NCBI GenBank assembly: GCA_937146645.1
Contig: CAKZRQ010000017.1
Coordinates: forward strand, 62,001 to 126,000
Length of the DNA: 64,000 bases
Origin: an uncultured Cyclobacteriaceae bacterium
GTDB lineage: Bacteria; Bacteroidota; Bacteroidia; Cytophagales; Cyclobacteriaceae
Direction: 5' to 3'
The notes below the pieces were generated by a model. It did not search any database and was not told where the DNA came from. It worked only from the letters and a program-made list of their open reading frames with translations. This document shows, piece by piece, positions 33,423-43,040 of the stretch. Positions within the stretch are counted from its first letter, which is position 1. The number at the start of each line of letters is the position of its first letter. A program made the translations under genes and the position numbers.

Positions 33423-34520
33423 TTATTTCGCTTCTTCAGTTGGCTCGAAAGGTAAATCCAATTGTTTGCCAAAGTGAATTCGTTCTTCGGTCAGGTTGAG
33501 ATTAGAAACTCCTGCTCCGAGTAATCTTGCAGGCATTTTCAAAGGCTCCTGATTTAGCAATTCGAAGCTGATTTTTCGTAGTGTTTCGAAGTCAGGGTAC
33601 TGGTCAATCGTCCGACTCCTTGTGTGAATGCTGTAGTCTGAATATTTGATTTTGATAGAGACGGTTCTACCGTTTATTCCACTCTTTTTCAATCTTCTGA
33701 TCAGTTCATCTAGAATCTTAGAAAGGGCCTCCTTGACCTCTTTCGTCTCAAAAACGTCTTTGTCGAAGGTGTTTTCTGCACTTACGGATTTGCGAATTCT
33801 ATTAGGCTGTACTTCGGATAAATGAACTCCTCGAACGATGTTGAAATAATGAAGGCCTGATTTGCCGAATTTGGAAGTTAGGAACTGTAAGGAGAATTGC
33901 TTTAGGTCTGCTCCAGAATGGATTCCATAAGAGTGCATTTTTTCAGCGGTCACCTTTCCAATTCCAAAGAATTTTTCAATTGGAAGTTTTTCTAAAAAAT
34001 CTTCAGCATCATCCGGGAGTATGACAGCTTGACCATTTGGCTTATTAAGATCCGAGGCTATCTTTGCTAAGAATTTATTGTAAGAAACGCCCGCTGAAGC
34101 ATTTAATCCTGTCTTCTCTTTTATCTCTTCGCGGATTTTCCTCGCGATTAAAATAGCTGATTTGAGTCCCTTTTTATTTTCGGTTACATCTAGAAAAGCC
34201 TCGTCCAGGGACAGTGGTTCTACTAAGTCTGTGTATTCGTGAAAAATTTCCTGGATTTGCTTACTGATTTCTTTGTATCGATCGAAACGACCTTTTGCGA
34301 AGATTAAATGAGGACATTTCTTTACTGCGAGCATGGAAGACATTGCAGACCTGATTCCATATTTCCTTGCCTCATAACTAGCCGCAGCAATCACACCTCG
34401 CTCTGCATTGCCACCTACCACCAATGGTTTCCCCCGCCACTCGGGATGGTCCAGTTGCTCTACGGATGCGTAAAATGCATCCATATCCACGTGAATAATC
34501 TTTCTTTTGTCGGTATTCAA
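33423..34520 (-). CDS. dinB: DNA polymerase IV
   Basis: This Y-family translesion polymerase (365 residues) has the metal-site segments HVDMDAFYASVEQ (about 10-22) and LSLDEAFLDVT (about 103-113), the thumb helix-hairpin-helix FFGIGKVTAEKMH and a little-finger domain with NTFDKDVF. The C-terminus QLDLPFEP is a probable beta-clamp-binding motif. It stands alone on the minus strand after the YceI gene terminator. Confidence 0.95.
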   Translation of the reverse strand: MNTDKRKIIHVDMDAFYASVEQLDHPEWRGKPLVVGGNAERGVIAAASYEARKYGIRSAMSSMLAVKKCPHLIFAKGRFDRYKEISKQIQEIFHEYTDLVEPLSLDEAFLDVTENKKGLKSAILIARKIREEIKEKTGLNASAGVSYNKFLAKIASDLNKPNGQAVILPDDAEDFLEKLPIEKFFGIGKVTAEKMHSYGIHSGADLKQFSLQFLTSKFGKSGLHYFNIVRGVHLSEVQPNRIRKSVSAENTFDKDVFETKEVKEALSKILDELIRRLKKSGINGRTVSIKIKYSDYSIHTRSRTIDQYPDFETLRKISFELLNQEPLKMPARLLGAGVSNLNLTEERIHFGKQLDLPFEPTEEAK

Positions 34521-34567
34521 AACTCAGCTTTGGCTCAGCTTTTATCAAGGTACAATTCGCCAAGGGC

Positions 34568-34597
34568 AAAAAAAAAGCGATGAGAAATCTCACCGCC
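34568..34597 (-). terminator. Rho-independent terminator after the YceI gene
   Basis: On the minus strand the stem GCGGTGAG / CTCATCGC (one mismatch) is followed by nine T residues. Confidence 0.82.
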
Positions 34598-34625
34598 TTT
34601 TCATTCATTGGGTAGTGTTAAGTTT

Positions 34626-35351
34626 TTATTGTGCTCTGAAGTCTAGTTCTACAGATACAGTATTGTAGATGAACTGATCTTTTGCTTTATCGACAGCATT
34701 GGACTCGTCACCATATGACAAACCCCACTCGGTTCTGTCGATATTGAATCCAGCCTTAGCCATTACAGCCCCATCTGCCATAGAAACAGCCGCTGGAAAT
34801 TTAATGTTTTTGGTTGTTCCTCTCATAGTAAGGTTACCACTGATCCAGTGAGTTGGAGAATCTGGAGATAAAGCTGAAGAAGCCATAGGAGTATTATCAG
34901 TTTCGAATTGCTCCATGTCTTCAACCATGTCACCAGCACCGAATTCCTCTACGCCTGTGATTTCAAAAGTGGCAGTTGGAAAATTCGCCGCATCGAAGAA
35001 GTCGTCAGACTGAAGGTGGCCATAAAGCTTACCATAGTTTTCAGATCCCTCTTCAAGGTCCTCAATTTTCAAACCTGCAATGTCGAAAGTGAATGTTCCT
35101 CCAGTAATGTCAGAACCGGCAACCGCAATTGAGCCTTCAGTTGCTGGAATTTTACCATAATGCTGCCCTGTTGGCTTGTAACCTCTCCATGCAATTGAAG
35201 TGGCTGCAGCATCAATATTCAAAGTCTTTCCTTCTGCTTCTGCTACTTCCTGAGCTTCAGAAGTTTCTACGGTAGATTCTGTGGACTGACCGCAGGCAAA
35301 AACAAGCATTGCTGCTGCAAGGAAAAGTCCTGATTGTTTTAAGAATTTCAT
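34626..35351 (-). CDS. YceI-family lipoprotein
   Basis: YceI proteins are lipocalin-like beta-barrels that bind polyisoprenoids or similar amphiphiles. I start it at 35351, where MKFLKQSGLFLAAAMLVFAC gives a lipobox (Cys20); the longer in-frame start at 35417 would precede it with an unlikely extension. Domain features are ATSIAWRGYKPTGQHYGKI, FTFDIAGLKIEDL, LQSDDFFDAANFPTATFEITG and FNIDRTEWGLSYG. A 30-residue acidic Ser/Thr/Glu linker follows the lipid anchor. It diverges from the carbonic-anhydrase-like gene. Confidence 0.9.
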   Translation of the reverse strand: MKFLKQSGLFLAAAMLVFACGQSTESTVETSEAQEVAEAEGKTLNIDAAATSIAWRGYKPTGQHYGKIPATEGSIAVAGSDITGGTFTFDIAGLKIEDLEEGSENYGKLYGHLQSDDFFDAANFPTATFEITGVEEFGAGDMVEDMEQFETDNTPMASSALSPDSPTHWISGNLTMRGTTKNIKFPAAVSMADGAVMAKAGFNIDRTEWGLSYGDESNAVDKAKDQFIYNTVSVELDFRAQ

Positions 35352-35466
35352 GATTTTGATTGTTTTCTTGAGATTGATGTATAGACATGAAAACCAGTAA
35401 TTTTTGAAAAAGTTCATGTTTGTGAAAAAAAATATAACTTTTGGTAAACTCCTTTATTCAAACATT

Positions 35467-35988
35467 ATGGCATTAATAAAAAGTGTTCTTGGTAAGAGTC
35501 CGGAATTTGGAACAGATTGTTGGTTGGCTGAGAATGCAACAGTAGTAGGGGATGTGGTGCTTGGAAATAATTGTACCGTTTGGTTTAATGCTGTGGTTAG
35601 AGGGGATGTTCATGAAATTAGGGTAGGGGATGACAGTAACATCCAGGATGGAGCGGTTATTCATTGTACTTATAAGAAGGCTGGGACTTACATAGGAAAG
35701 AGAGTCTCTATAGCTCATAATGCCGTAGTTCATGGATGTACAATTCATGATGATGTTCTGATTGGGATGGGAGCTATCGTTATGGATGGAGCTGTTATCG
35801 AATCGAATTCCATAATCGCGGCGGGAGCCGTGGTTTTAGCAAATACCCATGTTCCCTCGGGTACTATTTTCGCCGGTATGCCGGCAAAGGAGGTAAAAGA
35901 AATAGGTGAGGAGATGAGAGCGGTAATCGATCGAACTGCGAGGAATTACCCCAAATACGCAAAATGGTTTCAGGGAGGAGGTGAATAA
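35467..35988 (+). CDS. Gamma-carbonic anhydrase / LbH-family protein
   Basis: The 173-residue protein is a left-handed beta-helix of hexapeptide repeats (ENATVVGDVVLGNNCTVWFNA). It carries the metal-ligand histidines of the YrdA/gamma-CA family in VIHCTYKKAG and IAHNAVVHGCTI. I start it at the ATG at 35467 (MALIKSVLGKSPEFG); the in-frame ATG at 35404 lies within the divergent YceI leader. It may be a zinc or iron carbonic anhydrase, but many such proteins lack measured activity. Confidence 0.87.
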   Translation: MALIKSVLGKSPEFGTDCWLAENATVVGDVVLGNNCTVWFNAVVRGDVHEIRVGDDSNIQDGAVIHCTYKKAGTYIGKRVSIAHNAVVHGCTIHDDVLIGMGAIVMDGAVIESNSIIAAGAVVLANTHVPSGTIFAGMPAKEVKEIGEEMRAVIDRTARNYPKYAKWFQGGGE

Positions 35989-36043
35989 GTATTTTTTTAA
36001 ATCTAAAAATGCTCGACAAATTCATTTTTTTTGATTTTTAACT

Positions 36044-36051
36044 TACTTTTG
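36044..36051 (+). promoter_or_regulatory. Possible -7 promoter element
   Basis: TACTTTTG matches TAnnTTTG and lies 56 bases upstream of the membrane protein gene at 36108. The preceding sequence is very T-rich; no clear -33 element is seen. Confidence 0.35.
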
Positions 36052-36107
36052 TACAACATAGTCATTGATTCGTCGTAATCTGATTATGGGTTTTCTATAT
36101 TACTTTT

Positions 36108-36605
36108 ATGGCTCGAATTGATTTTTTTAAGGGCAGAGGACTCATCGGAGTATTAATTTTCCTTTTCATTCTCTTCAATGTGCTGTTGACACGCACTATG
36201 CCTGTGGGCTTAGTGTTGGATTTAAGGTTTCTTTATACGCCTGAAATTTTGCAGGAGTCCTTATCTCAAATGGGAGAAGTAGGAAGAGAACAATATTGGA
36301 AGGGAATCTTGTATTTGGATATGCCATACATCTTGGTGTATTCATACCTTTTCTGCAGGCTGATTAAGAACCTATGGTCAGGTACTCATCTTTATTATCT
36401 TACGATTGGTATTGCACTAGCGGATTTGTTTGAAAACCTTCTAATGCTGTACCATTTGCAGACCTTTCCTGAAATTTCTCACTTTCTAGCTTATTTGACT
36501 TCATTATTCACTTCAATGAAGTGGATAATGGTTGCCTCCTGGTTTGTCCTGGTGGTGATTGGCTTGATAAAGAAACTGTTTACAAGACAGCTAGAAGCAA
36601 GTTAA
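36108..36605 (+). CDS. Four-helix membrane protein of unknown function
   Basis: The 165-residue protein has about four hydrophobic helices (near 13-30, 68-88, 95-118 and 135-157) and a soluble loop after the first (TPEILQESLSQMGEVGREQYWKG split as TPEILQESLSQMGEVGREQ). I recognise no family. It precedes the amidoligase-like gene cluster by 99 bases on the same strand, but that spacing could hold a promoter, so membership is uncertain. Confidence 0.6.
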   Translation: MARIDFFKGRGLIGVLIFLFILFNVLLTRTMPVGLVLDLRFLYTPEILQESLSQMGEVGREQYWKGILYLDMPYILVYSYLFCRLIKNLWSGTHLYYLTIGIALADLFENLLMLYHLQTFPEISHFLAYLTSLFTSMKWIMVASWFVLVVIGLIKKLFTRQLEAS

Positions 36606-36704
36606 TTTTCTAAGTATTTTTCTTCTTGGTATTGTAAAGTCTGGAGAAAAGTAGACCTTTGCAAACTTATTCATATTCACGGATTTAGGCTTAGAAAAAA
36701 ACGC

Positions 36705-37418
36705 ATGAAAGAGGAGTATTTTAAGTGGTTTTCTCCACATCTTCAAAGAGACGTTCAGATGCTTGCTTTCGGGCATGCAGGATACCCGGTGATTGTATTC
36801 CCGACTTCAAAAGGATCATTTCATGAGAACCGGGACATGGGCCTGATTGATTCAGCTCGTTGGTTCATCGAACAGGGCCTGGTAAGGATTTACTGTCCGG
36901 AGAGCAATGATGCTCAAAGCTTATACAATAGAAATATTCATCCTCATGATAGAATTCAGGGTCACGTTGCCTACGATAAAATGATCTGTCATGAAATCGT
37001 GGAAAGAGTGAGATTGGATACCGCAGTCGCCAAGGTAGTGGTTGCCGGAGGTAGCTTTGGTGGCTATCATGCCGCTAACTTCGCTTTCAGACATCCTGGG
37101 TACGTGAGCCATATGTTCAGCATGTCTGGAGCTTTTGACATCCGGAGCTTCATGGATGGATATAATCACGATGATGTTTACTACAATAGCCCACTTGAGT
37201 TTCTTCCAAATCTTCAAGATCAAGAGCTTTGGAACATGGATATCGTATTAGGAACATCTAACTGGGACATTTGCTATGATGCAAACCTGAAGCTTCATGA
37301 AGTACTGAAGGCAAAAGGTCTACCACACTGGCTGGATGTGAGACAGGATCGAGAACATGACTGGCCAGTTTGGAAGGAAATGTTTCCTCATTATTTATCA
37401 AGAATAAAGTTTGATTAA
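36705..37418 (+). CDS. Alpha/beta-hydrolase esterase family protein (cluster gene 1)
   Basis: This 237-residue cytosolic protein has the nucleophile elbow GGSFGG (S117) and a late His in REHDWPVW (H218), consistent with an esterase/peptidase triad (COG4947-like). It has no signal peptide, unlike the other esterases in this window. It is 38 bases upstream of an ATP-grasp gene and begins a run of five co-directional genes that otherwise encode peptide- or amide-forming enzymes. A role in releasing, trimming or proofreading the product is inferred from context. Confidence 0.82.
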   Translation: MKEEYFKWFSPHLQRDVQMLAFGHAGYPVIVFPTSKGSFHENRDMGLIDSARWFIEQGLVRIYCPESNDAQSLYNRNIHPHDRIQGHVAYDKMICHEIVERVRLDTAVAKVVVAGGSFGGYHAANFAFRHPGYVSHMFSMSGAFDIRSFMDGYNHDDVYYNSPLEFLPNLQDQELWNMDIVLGTSNWDICYDANLKLHEVLKAKGLPHWLDVRQDREHDWPVWKEMFPHYLSRIKFD

Positions 37419-37456
37419 TCAGCAATAAGAACACGAACATTTTATATTAGCAGACT

Positions 37457-38413
37457 ATGAAAAAAGTTGGAATACTCTTTGGCATGGAGGATACTTTTCC
37501 TCAGGCATTTATCGATCGAGTGAACGAGCTGGATGGTAAGAAAATCGTAGCAGAGGCGGTGCAAATTGATAAGGTGGTTCAAAACCAGCTTTCGGAGTAT
37601 TCGGTAATTATTGACCGAATTTCTCAAGATGTACCTTTTTATCGCGCATATCTTAAAAATGCGGCCTTGACTGGAACAGCGGTGATTAACAATCCATTTT
37701 GGTGGAGTGCGGATGATAAGTTTTTTAACAATGCATTGGCGGACCAGCTAGGTGTACCTCTTCCAAAAACGGTGCTTCTGCCATCTTCTGAGCATCCGGA
37801 CGATACTTCAGCGAAATCTTTCAGAAATCTGAAAGCTCCTTTGGATTGGGATGGAATGTTTGAATACATCGGGTTCCCGGCATACATGAAACCATACGCT
37901 GGTGGTGGCTGGAAGAATGTCTACAGACTTGAGAATAAAGAGGAATTTTTTGCGAAGCATCCTGAAACTGGACAGCTAGTGATGCTTCTTCAGGAAGAGA
38001 TCGTATTCGATGAGTATTTCCGAGTGTATTGCCTTGGCGGCAAAGCGGTCAGAATCATGGAATATGAGCCAAGAAATCCTCATCATTTAAGATATGTAGT
38101 GGATCGTGCACCTTCTTCAAAGAAGCTGCTTTCCATGGTGACTAAGTATACTAAATCGCTCTGCCAGGGTCTTGGGTATGATTTCAATACCGTAGAATTT
38201 GCAGTACGCGATGGTATTCCATATGCTATTGATTTTGGTAATCCAGCGCCTGATGCAGATGTAAATTCTGTAGGTCAGGAGAATTTTGACTGGGTGGTTG
38301 AAGAAGCAGCTAAGATGGCTATTCGCTATGCGAAAGCCCAGAAACCAGGACAGATCAATTTGACCTGGGGTACTTTCATGCGTGATGCGGTTGAGCAGAC
38401 CAAGCGATTTTGA
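37457..38413 (+). CDS. ATP-grasp ligase (cluster gene 2)
   Basis: ATP-grasp ligases activate a carboxylate as acyl-phosphate and join it to an amine or thiol. In this 318-residue protein the nucleotide site is YMKPYAGGGWKNVY (K145, glycines 149-151), the hinge acids are QEEIVFDEYFRVY (about 179-191) and metal ligands lie in VEFAVRDGIPYAIDFGNP (E247, D259, N262). The N-terminus KVGILFGMEDTFPQAF is the pre-ATP-grasp fold. It resembles glutathione- or RimK-like enzymes in layout but has no clear assignment. It is 24 bases upstream of the GCS2-family gene. Confidence 0.83.
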   Translation: MKKVGILFGMEDTFPQAFIDRVNELDGKKIVAEAVQIDKVVQNQLSEYSVIIDRISQDVPFYRAYLKNAALTGTAVINNPFWWSADDKFFNNALADQLGVPLPKTVLLPSSEHPDDTSAKSFRNLKAPLDWDGMFEYIGFPAYMKPYAGGGWKNVYRLENKEEFFAKHPETGQLVMLLQEEIVFDEYFRVYCLGGKAVRIMEYEPRNPHHLRYVVDRAPSSKKLLSMVTKYTKSLCQGLGYDFNTVEFAVRDGIPYAIDFGNPAPDADVNSVGQENFDWVVEEAAKMAIRYAKAQKPGQINLTWGTFMRDAVEQTKRF

Positions 38414-38437
38414 TTTTTATCACTGAATAGCGGATTT

Positions 38438-39553
38438 ATGAAATCTGTTAAAAAACTTCCAGTATTTACCCTCGGTGTAGAAGAGGAATATCAGATCATC
38501 GACCCGAAAACACGGGACATGCGATCTCATATGTCTAAAATCGTAGAGGGTGGAAAGATTCATCTTCGAGAGCAGGTGAAAGCTGAAATGCACCAATCGG
38601 TGGTTGAAGTGGGGACGAACATTTGTCAAAATGTAGCAGAGGCTAGAAAGGAAGTTGGCTTTTTACGTCAGCAAGTTGGAGAGCTAGCGGCAAGACAAAA
38701 CCTTTTGGTTGGTTCTTCAGGAACTCATCCTTTTTCGAAGTGGCAAGATCAGCAGATTACAGATGAGGAGAGGTATCACCACATCGTGAATGAGTTGAAA
38801 GACATTGCGAGATCCAATTTAATTTTTGGTCTGCATGTTCACGTGGGAATTGATGATAGGCAAACTGCTTTGCAGCTGATGAATCAGGCCTGTTATTTTC
38901 TTCCGCATTTATACGCCCTATCGGCAAACAGTCCTTTCTGGGAGGGAAGAGATACAGGGTTTAAAGCTTTCAGAGCAAAGGTTTTTGCGAAGTTTCCAAG
39001 GACAGGTCTTCCAGAGTACTTTGATTCTGTGGCCTCTTATGATAATTATTTGGAGACTTTGGTCAAGACCAAATGCATAGACAACCCTAAGAAAATCTGG
39101 TGGGATTTGAGGATGCACCCATTCTTCAGTACCATAGAGTTTAGGATTTGTGATGTTTGTCTGACAGTAGATGAGACCATTTGTATCACGGCCTTGATCC
39201 AGGCTGTCGTTGCAAAGCTTTACAAGCTTATGATGAGCAACACGGGATTCAATATTTACAGGATTGCCTTGATACGGGAAAATAAGTTTAGAGCTGCCAG
39301 ATATGGTTTGGATGGACAGATGATCGACTTCGGTAAAAAAGAGGAAGTTCCCACCAAAGATCTAATCATGGAGCTGCTAGATTTCGTAGATGATGTAGTA
39401 GATGAGCTGGGAAGCCGAGAGGAAGTGAACTATGTTCATGAAATTCTGAAAAACGGAACAGGGGCAGATCAGCAGCTGAAAGTTTATGAGGAGACTCAGG
39501 ACTTGACCAAGGTGGTCGATTATATCACAGATAAGTTTAAGCAGGGGATTTGA
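38438..39553 (+). CDS. GCS2-family carboxylate-amine ligase (YbdK-like, cluster gene 3)
   Basis: The family joins a carboxylate (often the glutamate gamma-carboxyl) to an amine by an acyl-phosphate, like glutamate-cysteine ligase. The signature TLGVEEEYQIID is at residues 11-22, GLHVHVGID at about 131-139 and a basic/metal segment FFSTIEFRICDVCLT near 229. Length (371) is usual. The amine partner is unknown: these YbdK-like enzymes often have only weak glutamate-cysteine ligase activity. Its place between two ATP-grasp genes and a glutamine amidotransferase suggests a dedicated pathway. Confidence 0.88.
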   Translation: MKSVKKLPVFTLGVEEEYQIIDPKTRDMRSHMSKIVEGGKIHLREQVKAEMHQSVVEVGTNICQNVAEARKEVGFLRQQVGELAARQNLLVGSSGTHPFSKWQDQQITDEERYHHIVNELKDIARSNLIFGLHVHVGIDDRQTALQLMNQACYFLPHLYALSANSPFWEGRDTGFKAFRAKVFAKFPRTGLPEYFDSVASYDNYLETLVKTKCIDNPKKIWWDLRMHPFFSTIEFRICDVCLTVDETICITALIQAVVAKLYKLMMSNTGFNIYRIALIRENKFRAARYGLDGQMIDFGKKEEVPTKDLIMELLDFVDDVVDELGSREEVNYVHEILKNGTGADQQLKVYEETQDLTKVVDYITDKFKQGI

Positions 39554-39570
39554 TTCGAATTCCAAAGCAG

Positions 39571-39576
39571 AAGGAG
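39571..39576 (+). promoter_or_regulatory. Shine-Dalgarno site for the GTG-started amidotransferase gene
   Basis: AAGGAG lies 8 bases before the GTG at 39585. Strong sites of this kind are uncommon in this window, and it supports the GTG start. Confidence 0.6.
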
Positions 39577-39584
39577 TTATAAAA

Positions 39585-40415
39585 GTGAGTAGTAAAAAAA
39601 TAAAGTTGGCGATTTTGGATATGTATGATGGCGAGCCCAATCAGGGTATGCGTTGCATCATTGATATCGTAAATCGATTTGAGACCGATCTTGAGTTTAA
39701 GATATTTGATGTTAGGGGTAAAGCCGAAATACCTGAGATCAGAGATTACGAGATGTTTATCTCTACGGGAGGACCAGGAAACCCTCTTGAAGGTGATAAT
39801 GACTGGGACCTCAAATTCTTTGATTTTCTAGATCAGATCTGGATCTGGAATCAAAATCACCATCAGAAAAAGCACATTCTATTCATTTGTCACTCCTTCC
39901 AAATGGCCTGTAAGCATTTTGGTTTAGGTGAAATTTCTAAGAGAAAGTCAACCTCATTCGGTGTGATGTCGGTCCATAAGACTCCGGAAGGAATGGATGA
40001 TCCACTTTTAGAGAATCTGGATAACCCTTTCTGGGCGGTGGATAGCCGGGATTACCAAGTGCTGCAGCCGAATAAGAAAAAGTTTAAGCTTTTGGGAGCC
40101 AAAGTAATTTCTTTGGAGAAAATTAGGGACCATGTTCAATACGAACGTGCACTTATGGCCATTCGCTTTTCGGATGAAATGGTCGGAACACAATTCCATC
40201 CAGAAGCAGATCCTGTAAGCTTTTTGGCGCATTTGAAAAAGCCTGAGGTCAGGGAAAAAATCATTGAGTCTAAGGGTAAAACCAAGTTCAGGTCTATGCT
40301 TGAGCATCTCGTAGATGAAAACAAAATCTACAGAACCAATGAAACTTTGATCCCGAATTTTTTGAAAAATGCTATTAGCCGGATTAGAGAAACCAGCGAA
40401 AAAGCTTTGATCTAA
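39585..40415 (+). CDS. Class I glutamine amidotransferase-like protein (cluster gene 4)
   Basis: The 276-residue protein has the class I triad: Cys102 in LFICHSFQMA, and His205-Glu207 in GTQFHPEADP; STGGPGNPLEG (about 60-70) forms the oxyanion region. The elbow is odd: the usual GxCxG glycines are replaced by Phe and Ser. A C-terminal extension (about 225-276) goes beyond the domain. It could free ammonia for the neighbouring ligases, or hydrolyse a gamma-glutamyl bond. It starts with GTG, supported by AAGGAG, and is 31 bases after the GCS2 gene and 5 before the last gene. Confidence 0.82.
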   Translation: MSSKKIKLAILDMYDGEPNQGMRCIIDIVNRFETDLEFKIFDVRGKAEIPEIRDYEMFISTGGPGNPLEGDNDWDLKFFDFLDQIWIWNQNHHQKKHILFICHSFQMACKHFGLGEISKRKSTSFGVMSVHKTPEGMDDPLLENLDNPFWAVDSRDYQVLQPNKKKFKLLGAKVISLEKIRDHVQYERALMAIRFSDEMVGTQFHPEADPVSFLAHLKKPEVREKIIESKGKTKFRSMLEHLVDENKIYRTNETLIPNFLKNAISRIRETSEKALI

Positions 40416-40420
40416 AGACG

Positions 40421-41614
40421 ATGATCTCCAAACATAGAGAAGAATTCAATAAGGCATTTTCGGCTGAAAAGTATCAAGCTATGCTGGATAGAATAGCAGC
40501 TGACTTTGATCACTATCCCACTTTCAGAGTTGCTGAGTCGCCGCTTTTCGTGGATAATAAACTACGCGATCAACTTCTAGAAGCTACAGATCAGATCGTT
40601 GATTTTGTGACCCAGTCAGACTTTAAAGCGCTGACCCAACCTGCTCTGGATCTAACTATGGATATGGAAGGAGAGGGTGAGCATACGAAGTTTCTAGCTG
40701 TAGATTTTGGAATCTGTAAAGGAGAAAACGGCGAGATCATCCCAAAACTCATAGAGGTACAAGGTTTCCCCACCATTTTTAATTTTCAGAAAAGCCTTTT
40801 CGAGAAGTTTAAAATTACATACCCTATGCTTGAGAACTTCACTCCATATCTAAATGGGCATGACTCAGAATCCTATTCTGAAGTGCTTCGGAAGATTGTA
40901 TTAAAGGACCATAATCCGGATGAGGTTGTCCTTTTAGAAATTGATCCGAAGAACCAGAATACGAGAATAGATTTCGACTATGCAGAGCGAGATTTAGGAA
41001 TCGCTGTCGTTTGTGTTACAGAAGTAATTAAGGAGGGCGATAAGTTATTTTACTTAAATAAGGAAGGTGATAAAACGAGGATAAAGAGGGTTTACAACCG
41101 GGTGATTTTTGATGAGCTGCAAGCGCGGACCGATCTGGAATTGAACTTTAGTTTTACAGATTCCTTGGATGTGGAATGGGTAGGCCATCCAAATTGGTAC
41201 AATAGAATTTCGAAGTTTATTCTACCATATCTGGAAGGACCTTATTTTATCGAGTCCAAACTACTCAGTGAAATCACCACTATCCCTGAAGACCTCGAGA
41301 ATTACGTATTGAAACCCCTGTTTAGTTTCTCAGGATCTGGAGTGATTTTTCATGTAACACCCGAACACTTGAGAACCGTAAAACACCCTGATCAGTATAT
41401 GCTTCAGCGAAAGGTGGAATATGTTCCAATCCTTAAATCTCCTACCGGAGGTGTTAAAGCTGAAATCAGAATCTTTGCCATGTGGCCTGATGGAGACGAC
41501 AAACCATCAATCGTAGGTAATCTCGTTCGACTAAGCCGTGGGGAAATGATCGGCGTGAAGTTCAATAAGGATAAAGACTGGGTGGGTGGTACGATCGGAG
41601 TTTTCGAGAAGTAA
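40421..41614 (+). CDS. Circularly permuted ATP-grasp-like protein (cluster gene 5)
   Basis: In this 397-residue protein the metal-site-like segment (LAVDFGICKG and KLIEVQGFPT, D95 and E112) comes before the nucleotide-site-like segment NYVLKPLFSFSGSGVIF (K298, glycines 305 and 307). That order is the reverse of the normal ATP-grasp order and matches permuted enzymes such as glutathionylspermidine synthetase. KRVYNRVIFDEL and EIRIFAMW are further conserved-looking blocks. It ends the cluster and is convergent with pyrE (3 bases apart). A ligase role is inferred; the substrates are unknown. Confidence 0.7.
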   Translation: MISKHREEFNKAFSAEKYQAMLDRIAADFDHYPTFRVAESPLFVDNKLRDQLLEATDQIVDFVTQSDFKALTQPALDLTMDMEGEGEHTKFLAVDFGICKGENGEIIPKLIEVQGFPTIFNFQKSLFEKFKITYPMLENFTPYLNGHDSESYSEVLRKIVLKDHNPDEVVLLEIDPKNQNTRIDFDYAERDLGIAVVCVTEVIKEGDKLFYLNKEGDKTRIKRVYNRVIFDELQARTDLELNFSFTDSLDVEWVGHPNWYNRISKFILPYLEGPYFIESKLLSEITTIPEDLENYVLKPLFSFSGSGVIFHVTPEHLRTVKHPDQYMLQRKVEYVPILKSPTGGVKAEIRIFAMWPDGDDKPSIVGNLVRLSRGEMIGVKFNKDKDWVGGTIGVFEK

Positions 41615-41617
41615 TCC

Positions 41618-42268
41618 TTAACCTTCAGGATTCCACGCTCCTGGATCTTTTCTCCATTCGCTCAAAGAAGTCATTGCCTTTTCATCTATGTATTCACGAG
41701 CTACCGCTCTTGGAAGCATGGCTTCGTAATGACATAGGCAGACTAAATCGATTCCCGCCTCTTCAAAATTTCTTGCTGCCAGATCAAATCCATAGCTGAA
41801 AATAGCTACCATTCCTAATACCTCGAAACCTGCATTTTTTAGATCCTGAGCCGCTTTGAGGGAGCTTCCTCCCGTAGAAACTAAATCTTCAACCACCACT
41901 ACTTTTTGTCCTGGGGTTACTTTTCCTTCGATCATATTCTCCATTCCATGACCCTTTGGCTTAGAACGAACATAGATGAATGGAAGATCAAGATCATTTG
42001 AGATAAGTGCTCCCTGAGGAATTCCGGCAGTGGCTACACCCGCTATTCCTTCCGCTTTTGGGAAAAAGTGCTGCACTGCTTTGACTAGATTATCCTTGAT
42101 TAGATCCCGGACTGGCGGGAAAGAAAGTGACAATCTATTGTCACAATAGATAGGGGATTTCCATCCAGAAGCCCATGTAAACGGCTGCTCCGGTTGAAGT
42201 CTGATGGCTTCTATTTCTAGTAATTTATCAGCTACCTCGGCAGCGACATTCTCATCTAAAATTTGCAT
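41618..42268 (-). CDS. pyrE: Orotate phosphoribosyltransferase
   Basis: PyrE makes orotidine 5'-phosphate from orotate and PRPP in pyrimidine synthesis. The PRPP site is KVVVVEDLVSTGGSSLKA (about 118-134 from the chosen start), preceded by YVRSKPKGHG with catalytic lysines. I start it at 42268 (MQILDENVAAEVADK, 216 residues); an ATG at 42313 adds a hydrophobic leader that does not fit. It diverges from a NUDIX gene 97 bases away. Confidence 0.94.
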   Translation of the reverse strand: MQILDENVAAEVADKLLEIEAIRLQPEQPFTWASGWKSPIYCDNRLSLSFPPVRDLIKDNLVKAVQHFFPKAEGIAGVATAGIPQGALISNDLDLPFIYVRSKPKGHGMENMIEGKVTPGQKVVVVEDLVSTGGSSLKAAQDLKNAGFEVLGMVAIFSYGFDLAARNFEEAGIDLVCLCHYEAMLPRAVAREYIDEKAMTSLSEWRKDPGAWNPEG

Positions 42269-42365
42269 GCTCAAAAATAAAAGAATATGACTTCTGATCT
42301 TTTGTGAGGTCATTATTTTTTATGCATTTTTGGTTAGCTCCAAACCATGAATACAGCACCTGATT

Positions 42366-43040
42366 ATGCGGATTTTCGTTAATGACAAACCTCTGGATAT
42401 TGTCAGTCACAAGAAGCTCGATACTTCTAAAAAATTTGTCAAAGGAAAACCCATAGAAGAATATACTCCAGAGAGTTTGGAGCTTCGTAATCATCTACTT
42501 TTTAAAGATCCTAGCGAAGATGAGGTCATTCGGATTTTGTATGCTTTGCGCACTGGTCGGCTTAAGAAATTGAAATCAGTCACTATCGCATCCGCGGAGA
42601 AAAGAAAGACCATTGATTTTATCAAAAGCCGCTTTCAGATCATTAAAGCTGCGGGCGGAGTGGTTCAGGATGAGAAAAAAGGCTTCCTTCTTATTTATAG
42701 GTTAGGAAAATGGGATTTTCCAAAAGGGAAGTTTGAAAAGGGAGAAAGCCCAAAAGAATGTGCTATTCGTGAAGTAGAGGAGGAGTGCGCTATAAAAGTG
42801 AGTGCGCATGAAAGAATTTGCAAGACCTGGCATACTTATACTAAAGACCGTAAAAGCATCCTCAAACTCACGTACTGGTATGACATGAGTTGTGATTCAG
42901 ATAAAGGAATGAAACCTCAAAAAGAAGAGGGAATCGACGATATTCAATGGATGAATAAGAAAGAGGCTAAGACGGCACTGAAGAGTTCTTATCCCTCTAT
43001 GCGTTACCTTTTCAGTCGTGTGACTGGAGAAAGTTACTAA
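42366..43040 (+). CDS. NUDIX hydrolase with extra N-terminal domain
   Basis: The 224-residue protein has about 95 N-terminal residues that I do not recognise (KLDTSKKFVKGKPIEEYT, DEVIRILYALRTGRLKKLKS) and then a NUDIX domain. The NUDIX box is GKFEKGESPKECAIREVEEE, followed by CAI in place of the usual xGU, with all acidic ligands present. NUDIX enzymes cleave nucleoside diphosphates linked to other groups. The substrate is unknown. Its stop overlaps the convergent coaD stop by 4 bases. Confidence 0.83.
   Translation: MRIFVNDKPLDIVSHKKLDTSKKFVKGKPIEEYTPESLELRNHLLFKDPSEDEVIRILYALRTGRLKKLKSVTIASAEKRKTIDFIKSRFQIIKAAGGVVQDEKKGFLLIYRLGKWDFPKGKFEKGESPKECAIREVEEECAIKVSAHERICKTWHTYTKDRKSILKLTYWYDMSCDSDKGMKPQKEEGIDDIQWMNKKEAKTALKSSYPSMRYLFSRVTGESY

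Follow-up and report, generated by a model that had tools for sequence, protein, structure and literature searches.

A cluster of five genes at positions 36705-41614 of a 64,000-nucleotide stretch from an uncultured Cyclobacteriaceae bacterium (contig CAKZRQ010000017.1; the whole stretch is called the window below) very probably encodes one dedicated pathway, whose core consists of two ligases, the product of gene B and that of gene E or of its stand-in X. With moderate confidence we read it as a dedicated, probably cytosolic Bacteroidota pathway that would make a small non-ribosomal peptide or amide through successive ATP-driven amide bonds. The genes lie on the + strand in the order A (alpha/beta-hydrolase), B (RimK/Ddl-like ATP-grasp ligase), C (GCS2/YbdK-family carboxylate-amine ligase), D (class I glutamine-amidotransferase-like protein) and E (permuted ATP-grasp protein), with intergenic spacers of 38, 24, 31 and 5 bases. 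An earlier reading of this DNA, made from the letters alone (the sequence-only reading), had reported these five open reading frames (ORFs), their single direction and their spacers, and the coordinates proved exact on re-check. Its further proposal, that three likely C-N ligases of differing types form a small pathway with an amidotransferase-like protein and a hydrolase, is now supported by gene order, co-occurrence and gene trees.

Co-occurrence of the ligase genes across Bacteroidota

We searched 296 Bacteroidota genomes, one per species and each at least 90% complete, with one profile per gene. E was found in 91 genomes and B in 107, both being present in 88; E occurred without B in three genomes and B without E in 19. 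Fifteen of these 19 carry X, another permuted ATP-grasp protein. When E and X are counted together, 103 of 106 genomes also have B (those lacking it are G144, G154 and G220), and 103 of the 110 genomes with B or E/X have both. This association of B with E or X has a Fisher p of 1.6e-70, uncorrected for phylogeny, and together with the shared gene order described below it puts the arrangement far outside chance. Matches to C were found in 102 genomes, 92 of them scoring at least 380 bits, and C at this level is present in 92 of the 106 E-or-X genomes. What comes closest to a core is the pair of B with E or X, in most cases accompanied by C. Ten C matches score lower; nine of them come from genomes that have neither E nor X, and the tenth, in the X genome G254, reaches 318 bits and passes the cut-off of the carboxylate-amine ligase family NF010039.

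The presence pattern was tabulated by family for 61 genomes. For E, B and C, families f1, f2 and f4 comprise full and empty genomes with no partial ones, and family f7 is likewise full or empty except for G154. Genomes of family f8 are either full save for C or empty, and in family f5 one genome has none of the three but a low-scoring B. As far as sequence comparison reaches, the cluster genes behave as one inherited unit.

Conserved order, linkage and shared history

A scan of genome contigs (genome_contigs) with E returned 259 relatives, from which the best 80 were retained; the following results on gene order concern these. They come from Algoriphagus and related genera, Flavobacterium and some other Bacteroidota. 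The order and direction A-B-C-D-E are kept in 77 of the 80, and the remaining three stretches (L036 and L056 without A, L070 with E alone) are all cut by contig ends. The conserved neighbourhood that had been proposed beforehand as a check was thus found among the best 80 of the 259 relatives. Within the genus to which the window belongs, 32 of 40 genomes carry E.

In the set of 296 genomes the genes do not always lie close together. B and E lie no more than 12 kb apart in 49 of the 88 genomes that have both. Of the 91 E genomes, 83 also have B and C, and 21 of the 83 have no pair of the three within 12 kb; in G043, which is a single contig, the three genes are hundreds of kilobases apart. Physical linkage is not the cause of the co-retention of B, C and E. 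The possibility that five unrelated genes became adjacent by accident was rejected, being contradicted by the shared order, the co-occurrence, the retention when unlinked and the family pattern.

Maximum-likelihood trees were built for each gene from 36-42 rows by a 'quick' method, with the SH-like approximate likelihood ratio test (SH-aLRT) as the only branch support. The 11 Algoriphagus-type and 7 Flavobacterium-type sequences form one clade with SH-aLRT of 99-100 in all five trees. Outside this clade fall the remaining genera of the window's family and those of family f7, each represented by three rows. Pairwise tree distances are correlated across the five genes (Pearson 0.73-0.90 over 33 shared rows, with no species-tree correction), with E and D varying most and B least. 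Congruent gene trees, also proposed beforehand as a check, were therefore obtained, both in the joint clade (5/5 trees) and in the correlated distances. Block transfer between Algoriphagus-type and Flavobacterium-type lineages would be the simplest reading of these trees, and differential loss of an old duplicate cluster would be a less simple one. Inside the clade the E tree is poorly resolved (the support for Algoriphagus-type is 28, and Flavobacterium-type is not one clade), so that the direction of transfer is not fixed.

The permuted ATP-grasp proteins E and X

Conserved residues were counted in wide alignments of 151 sequences for E, 153 for B, 131 for C, 126 for D and 111 for A. The predicted active-site residues are kept in all five proteins, with residue roles here and below inferred from known relatives.

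Gene E (40421..41614, + strand) has no meaningful match in Pfam or NCBIfam (best E-values 0.15 and 0.045, respectively). Its AlphaFold model, built from an alignment of 26 sequences, has a predicted local distance difference test score (pLDDT) of 85. The model gave 24 Foldseek matches (E 2.5e-14 to 3.0e-7), including eukaryotic glutathione synthetases, 3n6x (a putative glutathionylspermidine synthase), GspS, YgiC and YjfC. In VIA, E aligned with YgiC at Z 24.0 (root-mean-square deviation, rmsd, 3.7 over 343 residues) and with human glutathione synthetase at Z 22.7 (rmsd 3.9 over 355 residues); the first 26 VIA matches range from Z 24.0 to 18.9, with 312-369 residues and rmsd 3.5-5.7. Judged by this model, E has the permuted ATP-grasp fold of glutathione synthetase, GspS and YgiC across the whole chain, and the earlier label 'permuted ATP-grasp-like' is right by fold. 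D95, E112, Q114, K298, G305, G307, R350 and R370 are invariant.

The structural neighbours of E bear on a special case of the proposed pathway, in which E or X would attach spermidine or homospermidine to a peptide built by C and B, and A or D would cleave the conjugate. YgiC, YjfC and GspS are among the closest neighbours, and the RefSeq name of ygiC is 'peptide--spermidine ligase'. In part of the text of PMC12568646, YgiC and YjfC are termed peptidylpolyamine synthetases, which counts for the polyamine conjugate and for the wider pathway alike. Glutathione synthetases, which add glycine, match E within about 1-2 Z units of these proteins, and E is too short to hold the fused amidase of GspS (397 aa vs 619); we consider a polyamine conjugate unlikely.

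X is a protein of about 450 residues with a sub-threshold match to PF14403 and a match to 3n6x at 1.8e-8, and by sequence it is a second type of permuted ATP-grasp, of another subgroup than E. It is found in 15 of the 296 genomes, never alongside E, and it adjoins B where E is missing (L111-L120 and L130 among the fetched stretches). The distance from X to B is at most 12 kb in 15/15 genomes, and that from X to D in 14/15. Among the 11 fetched X stretches, eight have A ahead of B, and five have a second PF00756-type esterase cluster after D. Because X stands beside B in genomes that lack E, what is conserved appears to be the role of a second, permuted ATP-grasp.

Other genes recur around E in some of the fetched stretches. 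A PF07969-type amidohydrolase cluster is located directly 5' of E in 9/9 fetched genomes of family f24 and 2/3 of family f27 (L139, L141, L144 and L181-L188; two members were checked with Pfam), and near C or D in three of five fetched f5 genomes. L148 and L155, from two different families, have a gene for an M29-type peptidase between C and E. Such amidohydrolase and peptidase neighbours would fit the synthesis of a peptide or amide together with its breakdown.

The ATP-grasp ligase B

Gene B (37457..38413, + strand) is the most conserved member of the cluster, sharing 78-97% identity with the named relatives that entered the trees. It matches no Pfam family at E up to 1 and hence has no PF02955 (GshB) domain; canonical glutathione synthesis was rejected since B lacks a glutathione-synthetase domain. 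The match to NCBIfam rimK_fam TIGR00768 (E 2.8e-8; 33.5 bits against a cut-off of 143.4) places B as related to that family and outside it. PDB sequence searches with B gave three matches at E 0.33-0.36, and none with a profile. A weak structure model (pLDDT 63) matches D-Ala-D-Ala ligases, ArgX and biotin carboxylases, and by this modelled fold B looks like a Ddl/ArgX-type ATP-grasp. K145, E247, D259 and N262 are at least 97% conserved.

These resemblances also bear on the modification of a protein or ribosomal-peptide tail (RimK-like glutamylation, graspetide formation or Pup-like tagging), with no free metabolite. B resembles RimK by sequence, and the fold of its weak model resembles those of ArgX and graspetide ligases; in part of the text of PMC2588565, GCS2 is described as related to Pup ligase. 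With spacers of 5-38 bases in the window, no precursor gene lies between the five genes; around the loci, in a survey of ORFs of at least 70 codons, some small neighbours recur within single families. The retention of scattered B, C and E genes fits a diffusible product better, and tail modification appears highly improbable.

The GCS2 ligase C

Gene C (38438..39553, + strand) matches PF04107 (GCS2) at 203.7 bits and passes the cut-offs of NF010039 'carboxylate-amine ligase' (534.9 vs 371) and TIGR02050 (296.5 vs 176.4). It fails those of the glutamate-cysteine ligase equivalogs NF010043 (364.5 vs 409) and TIGR02048 (67.5 vs 249). Forty-two residues are invariant, including E15-E16-E17. The cut-off of the NF010039 group, to which C belongs, is reached in 0/14 control genomes. 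The four genomes of family f8 that carry the ligase module (L170 and L162-L165) retain B, D, E and an A-like gene with no C; the first amide bond there must arise otherwise.

A GCS2 enzyme together with a glutathione-synthetase fold is the classical pair for a low-molecular-weight thiol or redox buffer, a glutathione analogue, as the sequence-only reading had suggested. This was examined in 74 hand-picked genomes, 43 with the module and 31 without. In favour of a thiol, GshB-type PF02955 matches that reach 160 bits are less frequent in module genomes (2/43 vs 10/31; p 0.003, phylogeny uncorrected, at a threshold chosen after the scores were known). At the family's own cut-off, 45 of the 74 genomes match. 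Eleven of the 12 strong GshB-type loci (L237-L248) have a neighbour from a single further blast cluster, of which three members were checked, one being an N-formylglutamate amidohydrolase and two MATCAP. With such neighbours, the strong PF02955 proteins need not be glutathione synthetases, which lessens the weight of this comparison for a thiol. The failure of C at the glutamate-cysteine ligase cut-offs counts further against it, as does bshC (bacillithiol), which is present in 73/74 genomes regardless of the module. The thiol idea is left unsupported by this near-universal bshC, and we regard it as quite unlikely; the peptide or amide pathway proposed here neither needs a thiol role nor speaks against one. 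A narrower version, the module as a thiol replacement for bacillithiol, was rejected since it shows no complementarity with bshC. The loci that combine a PF02955 ATP-grasp with MATCAP or N-formylglutamate amidohydrolase represent a different amidoligase cluster, anti-correlated with the module in this set at that threshold.

The hydrolase A and the amidotransferase-like protein D

Gene D (39585..40415, + strand) matches PF00117 (GATase) at 31.4 bits against a cut-off of 22.8, and C102, H205 and E207 are invariant; the Pfam match and the Cys-His-Glu set together place it with the class I glutamine amidotransferase fold. It stays far below the MetA cut-off (TIGR01001, 26.2 bits vs 495), and its profile resemblance to MetA is weak and partial. 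This partial likeness to homoserine O-succinyltransferase makes an acyl-transfer role possible. D was found in 73 of the 296 genomes, three of them with scores below 20 bits, and the other 70 all have E or X.

The combination of ligases with a GATase-like D bearing an invariant Cys-His-Glu set would also suit a compatible solute, a C-terminally amidated di- or tripeptide like N-acetylglutaminylglutamine amide (NAGGN), for which the ATP-grasps would build the chain and D would supply ammonia; the M29-type peptidase genes of L148 and L155 count in its favour too. NAGGN is a small amidated peptide made by an ATP-grasp ligase and an amidotransferase, the latter of the asparagine-synthetase-type class II, and its route includes a GNAT domain in a GNAT-ATP-grasp fusion. 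D, unlike the NAGGN amidotransferase, is class I-like, and Pfam detects neither a GNAT-ATP-grasp fusion nor a class II amidotransferase domain in A-E, so that the marks of the NAGGN route are absent from the cluster. The lack of an acetyltransferase domain in the cluster (Pfam), the many E-or-X genomes without D (counted below) and the frequent presence of the module in species of Flavobacterium, a genus not known to be tied to salt, make a compatible solute very unlikely.

Gene A (36705..37418, + strand) matches PF00756 (Esterase) at 27 bits against a cut-off of 22. D188 is invariant and S117 and H218 are at least 97% conserved; Ser117-Asp188-His218 is the predicted catalytic triad, as judged from the motif. 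A-type proteins form a broad family, present in 129 of the 296 genomes. In an uncultured Flavobacterium (L076:3156-3866) gene A reads with an in-frame stop, either a decayed copy or a sequencing error.

Comparison with known systems

The best functional parallel is offered by the chain that leads from gamma-glutamylcysteine via glutathione to glutathionylspermidine, here with other building blocks. The cluster shares with the route of GshA, glutathione synthetase and GspS, and with YgiC/YjfC, a GCS-type ligase and the permuted ATP-grasp fold of E, and successive amide bonds on a small peptide are proposed here from the genes. It differs from that route in adding the Ddl/RimK-type ATP-grasp B, which has no GshB family match, in an E that is remote in sequence and too short for an amidase domain, and in its GATase-like and esterase genes; furthermore, nearly all tested hosts have bshC. 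Given that B and C do not pass as glutathione enzymes by sequence and that E is remote, the cluster would work like this chain without being a member of it.

C is like the YbdK/GCS2 family in scoring above the TIGR02050 and NF010039 cut-offs, whereas the neighbours of E. coli ybdK (8 kb of annotation) include none of A, B, D and E. In part of the text of Iyer and co-workers (PMC2588565), a carboxylate-amine ligase is found with a glutamine-amidotransferase-like gene, and glutathione-like or related peptide metabolites are predicted. The present cluster shares that pairing, whereas the neighbourhoods in that part of the paper involve another ligase family and occur in proteobacteria and firmicutes.

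Surroundings of the cluster

On the 5' side of the cluster lie a gamma-carbonic-anhydrase-like gene (35467-35988; 145 bits in NCBIfam, under the family cut-off) and a short ORF of no recognised kind (36108-36605). The convergent gene on the 3' side (41618-42313) presumably resembles orotate phosphoribosyltransferase. No RNA switch or leader turned up: across 34500-43000 nothing reached the Rfam gathering score. A scan restricted to sigma-70-type promoters gave nine, against 14.0 expected from shuffles, and a terminator scan gave seven, against 4.7 expected. An anti-phage defence role was rejected, as none of A-E matches PADLOC at E 0.001. Plasmid carriage was rejected as well, B and E having no tblastn match (E 1e-5) among 72,556 plasmid records.

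Proposed pathway and its standing

We propose that C would activate glutamate, or a similar acid, at its gamma-carboxylate and couple that group to an amine in a GCS2-like manner, and that B would add an amino acid to the product. E, or X in other lineages, would then add an amino acid, ammonia or a polyamine as a cap at the carboxyl end, a step modelled on glutathione synthetase, GspS and YgiC. D may hydrolyse an amide, either that of glutamine or a gamma-glutamyl bond in turnover, and A may remove or swap an ester or acyl group or degrade the product. In lineages without C (the four f8 module genomes and most X genomes) the pathway would begin with an already existing precursor. This order and chemistry, with C making the first bond, B the second, E/X the cap and D/A feeding or recycling, is tentative, and we lean slightly towards doubting it in this exact form.

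A number of observations weigh against the reading of the cluster as one peptide- or amide-making pathway. The sequence-only reading had named independent occurrence of the genes as the outcome that would count against it, and for the ligases this was encountered in exceptional genomes, namely the three with E and no B, four with B alone, all low-scoring (195-324 bits), and nine that hold only a low-scoring C (245-335 bits). Among the three, G144 and G220 hold C and E, and the Flavobacterium-type G154 is a true exception: C-D-E adjoin as a partial cassette on a 21.6-kb contig (L249, G154:C60:1-12000), with no A or B upstream on the contig or elsewhere in the genome. The p-values for co-occurrence take no account of phylogeny, and some genomes scored as 'unlinked' are fragmented drafts. 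C of at least 380 bits is missing in 9/15 X genomes and in 5/91 E genomes (the four f8 module genomes and G212), so that the pathway need not open with a GCS2 step. D and A are tied to the set less strictly than the ligases: 36 of the 106 E-or-X genomes lack D, and A-like proteins also occur in genomes without the ligases. The 'five-gene' unit of the sequence-only reading is thus the local form. At the protein level, the model of B is weak, and the sequence of E compared with YgiC and GspS is near noise: its best PDB profile match is YgiC at E 0.98, and hhalign gave a 65-column match (probability 39) and none to Gss. With a likeness by fold and remote by sequence, the substrates of E may differ considerably from those of YgiC and GspS.

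Literature searches, with most subscription journals outside their coverage, found no description of the cluster, and the Iyer 2009 amidoligase survey may list it. It is possible, although we doubt it more than we believe it, that the product is a widespread Bacteroidota metabolite not yet described: a gamma-glutamyl-peptide with an amine, ammonia or polyamine cap, assembled by a core of two ATP-grasps whose capping member has, in several lineages, given way to another kind of permuted ATP-grasp. About one third of the sampled Bacteroidota species (106/296, counted by E or X) keep this ligase pathway. The joint presence pattern, the ligase swap and the compact cassette make the product findable, and finding it would assign a role to the ligase family of E, for which no Pfam or NCBIfam model matched.

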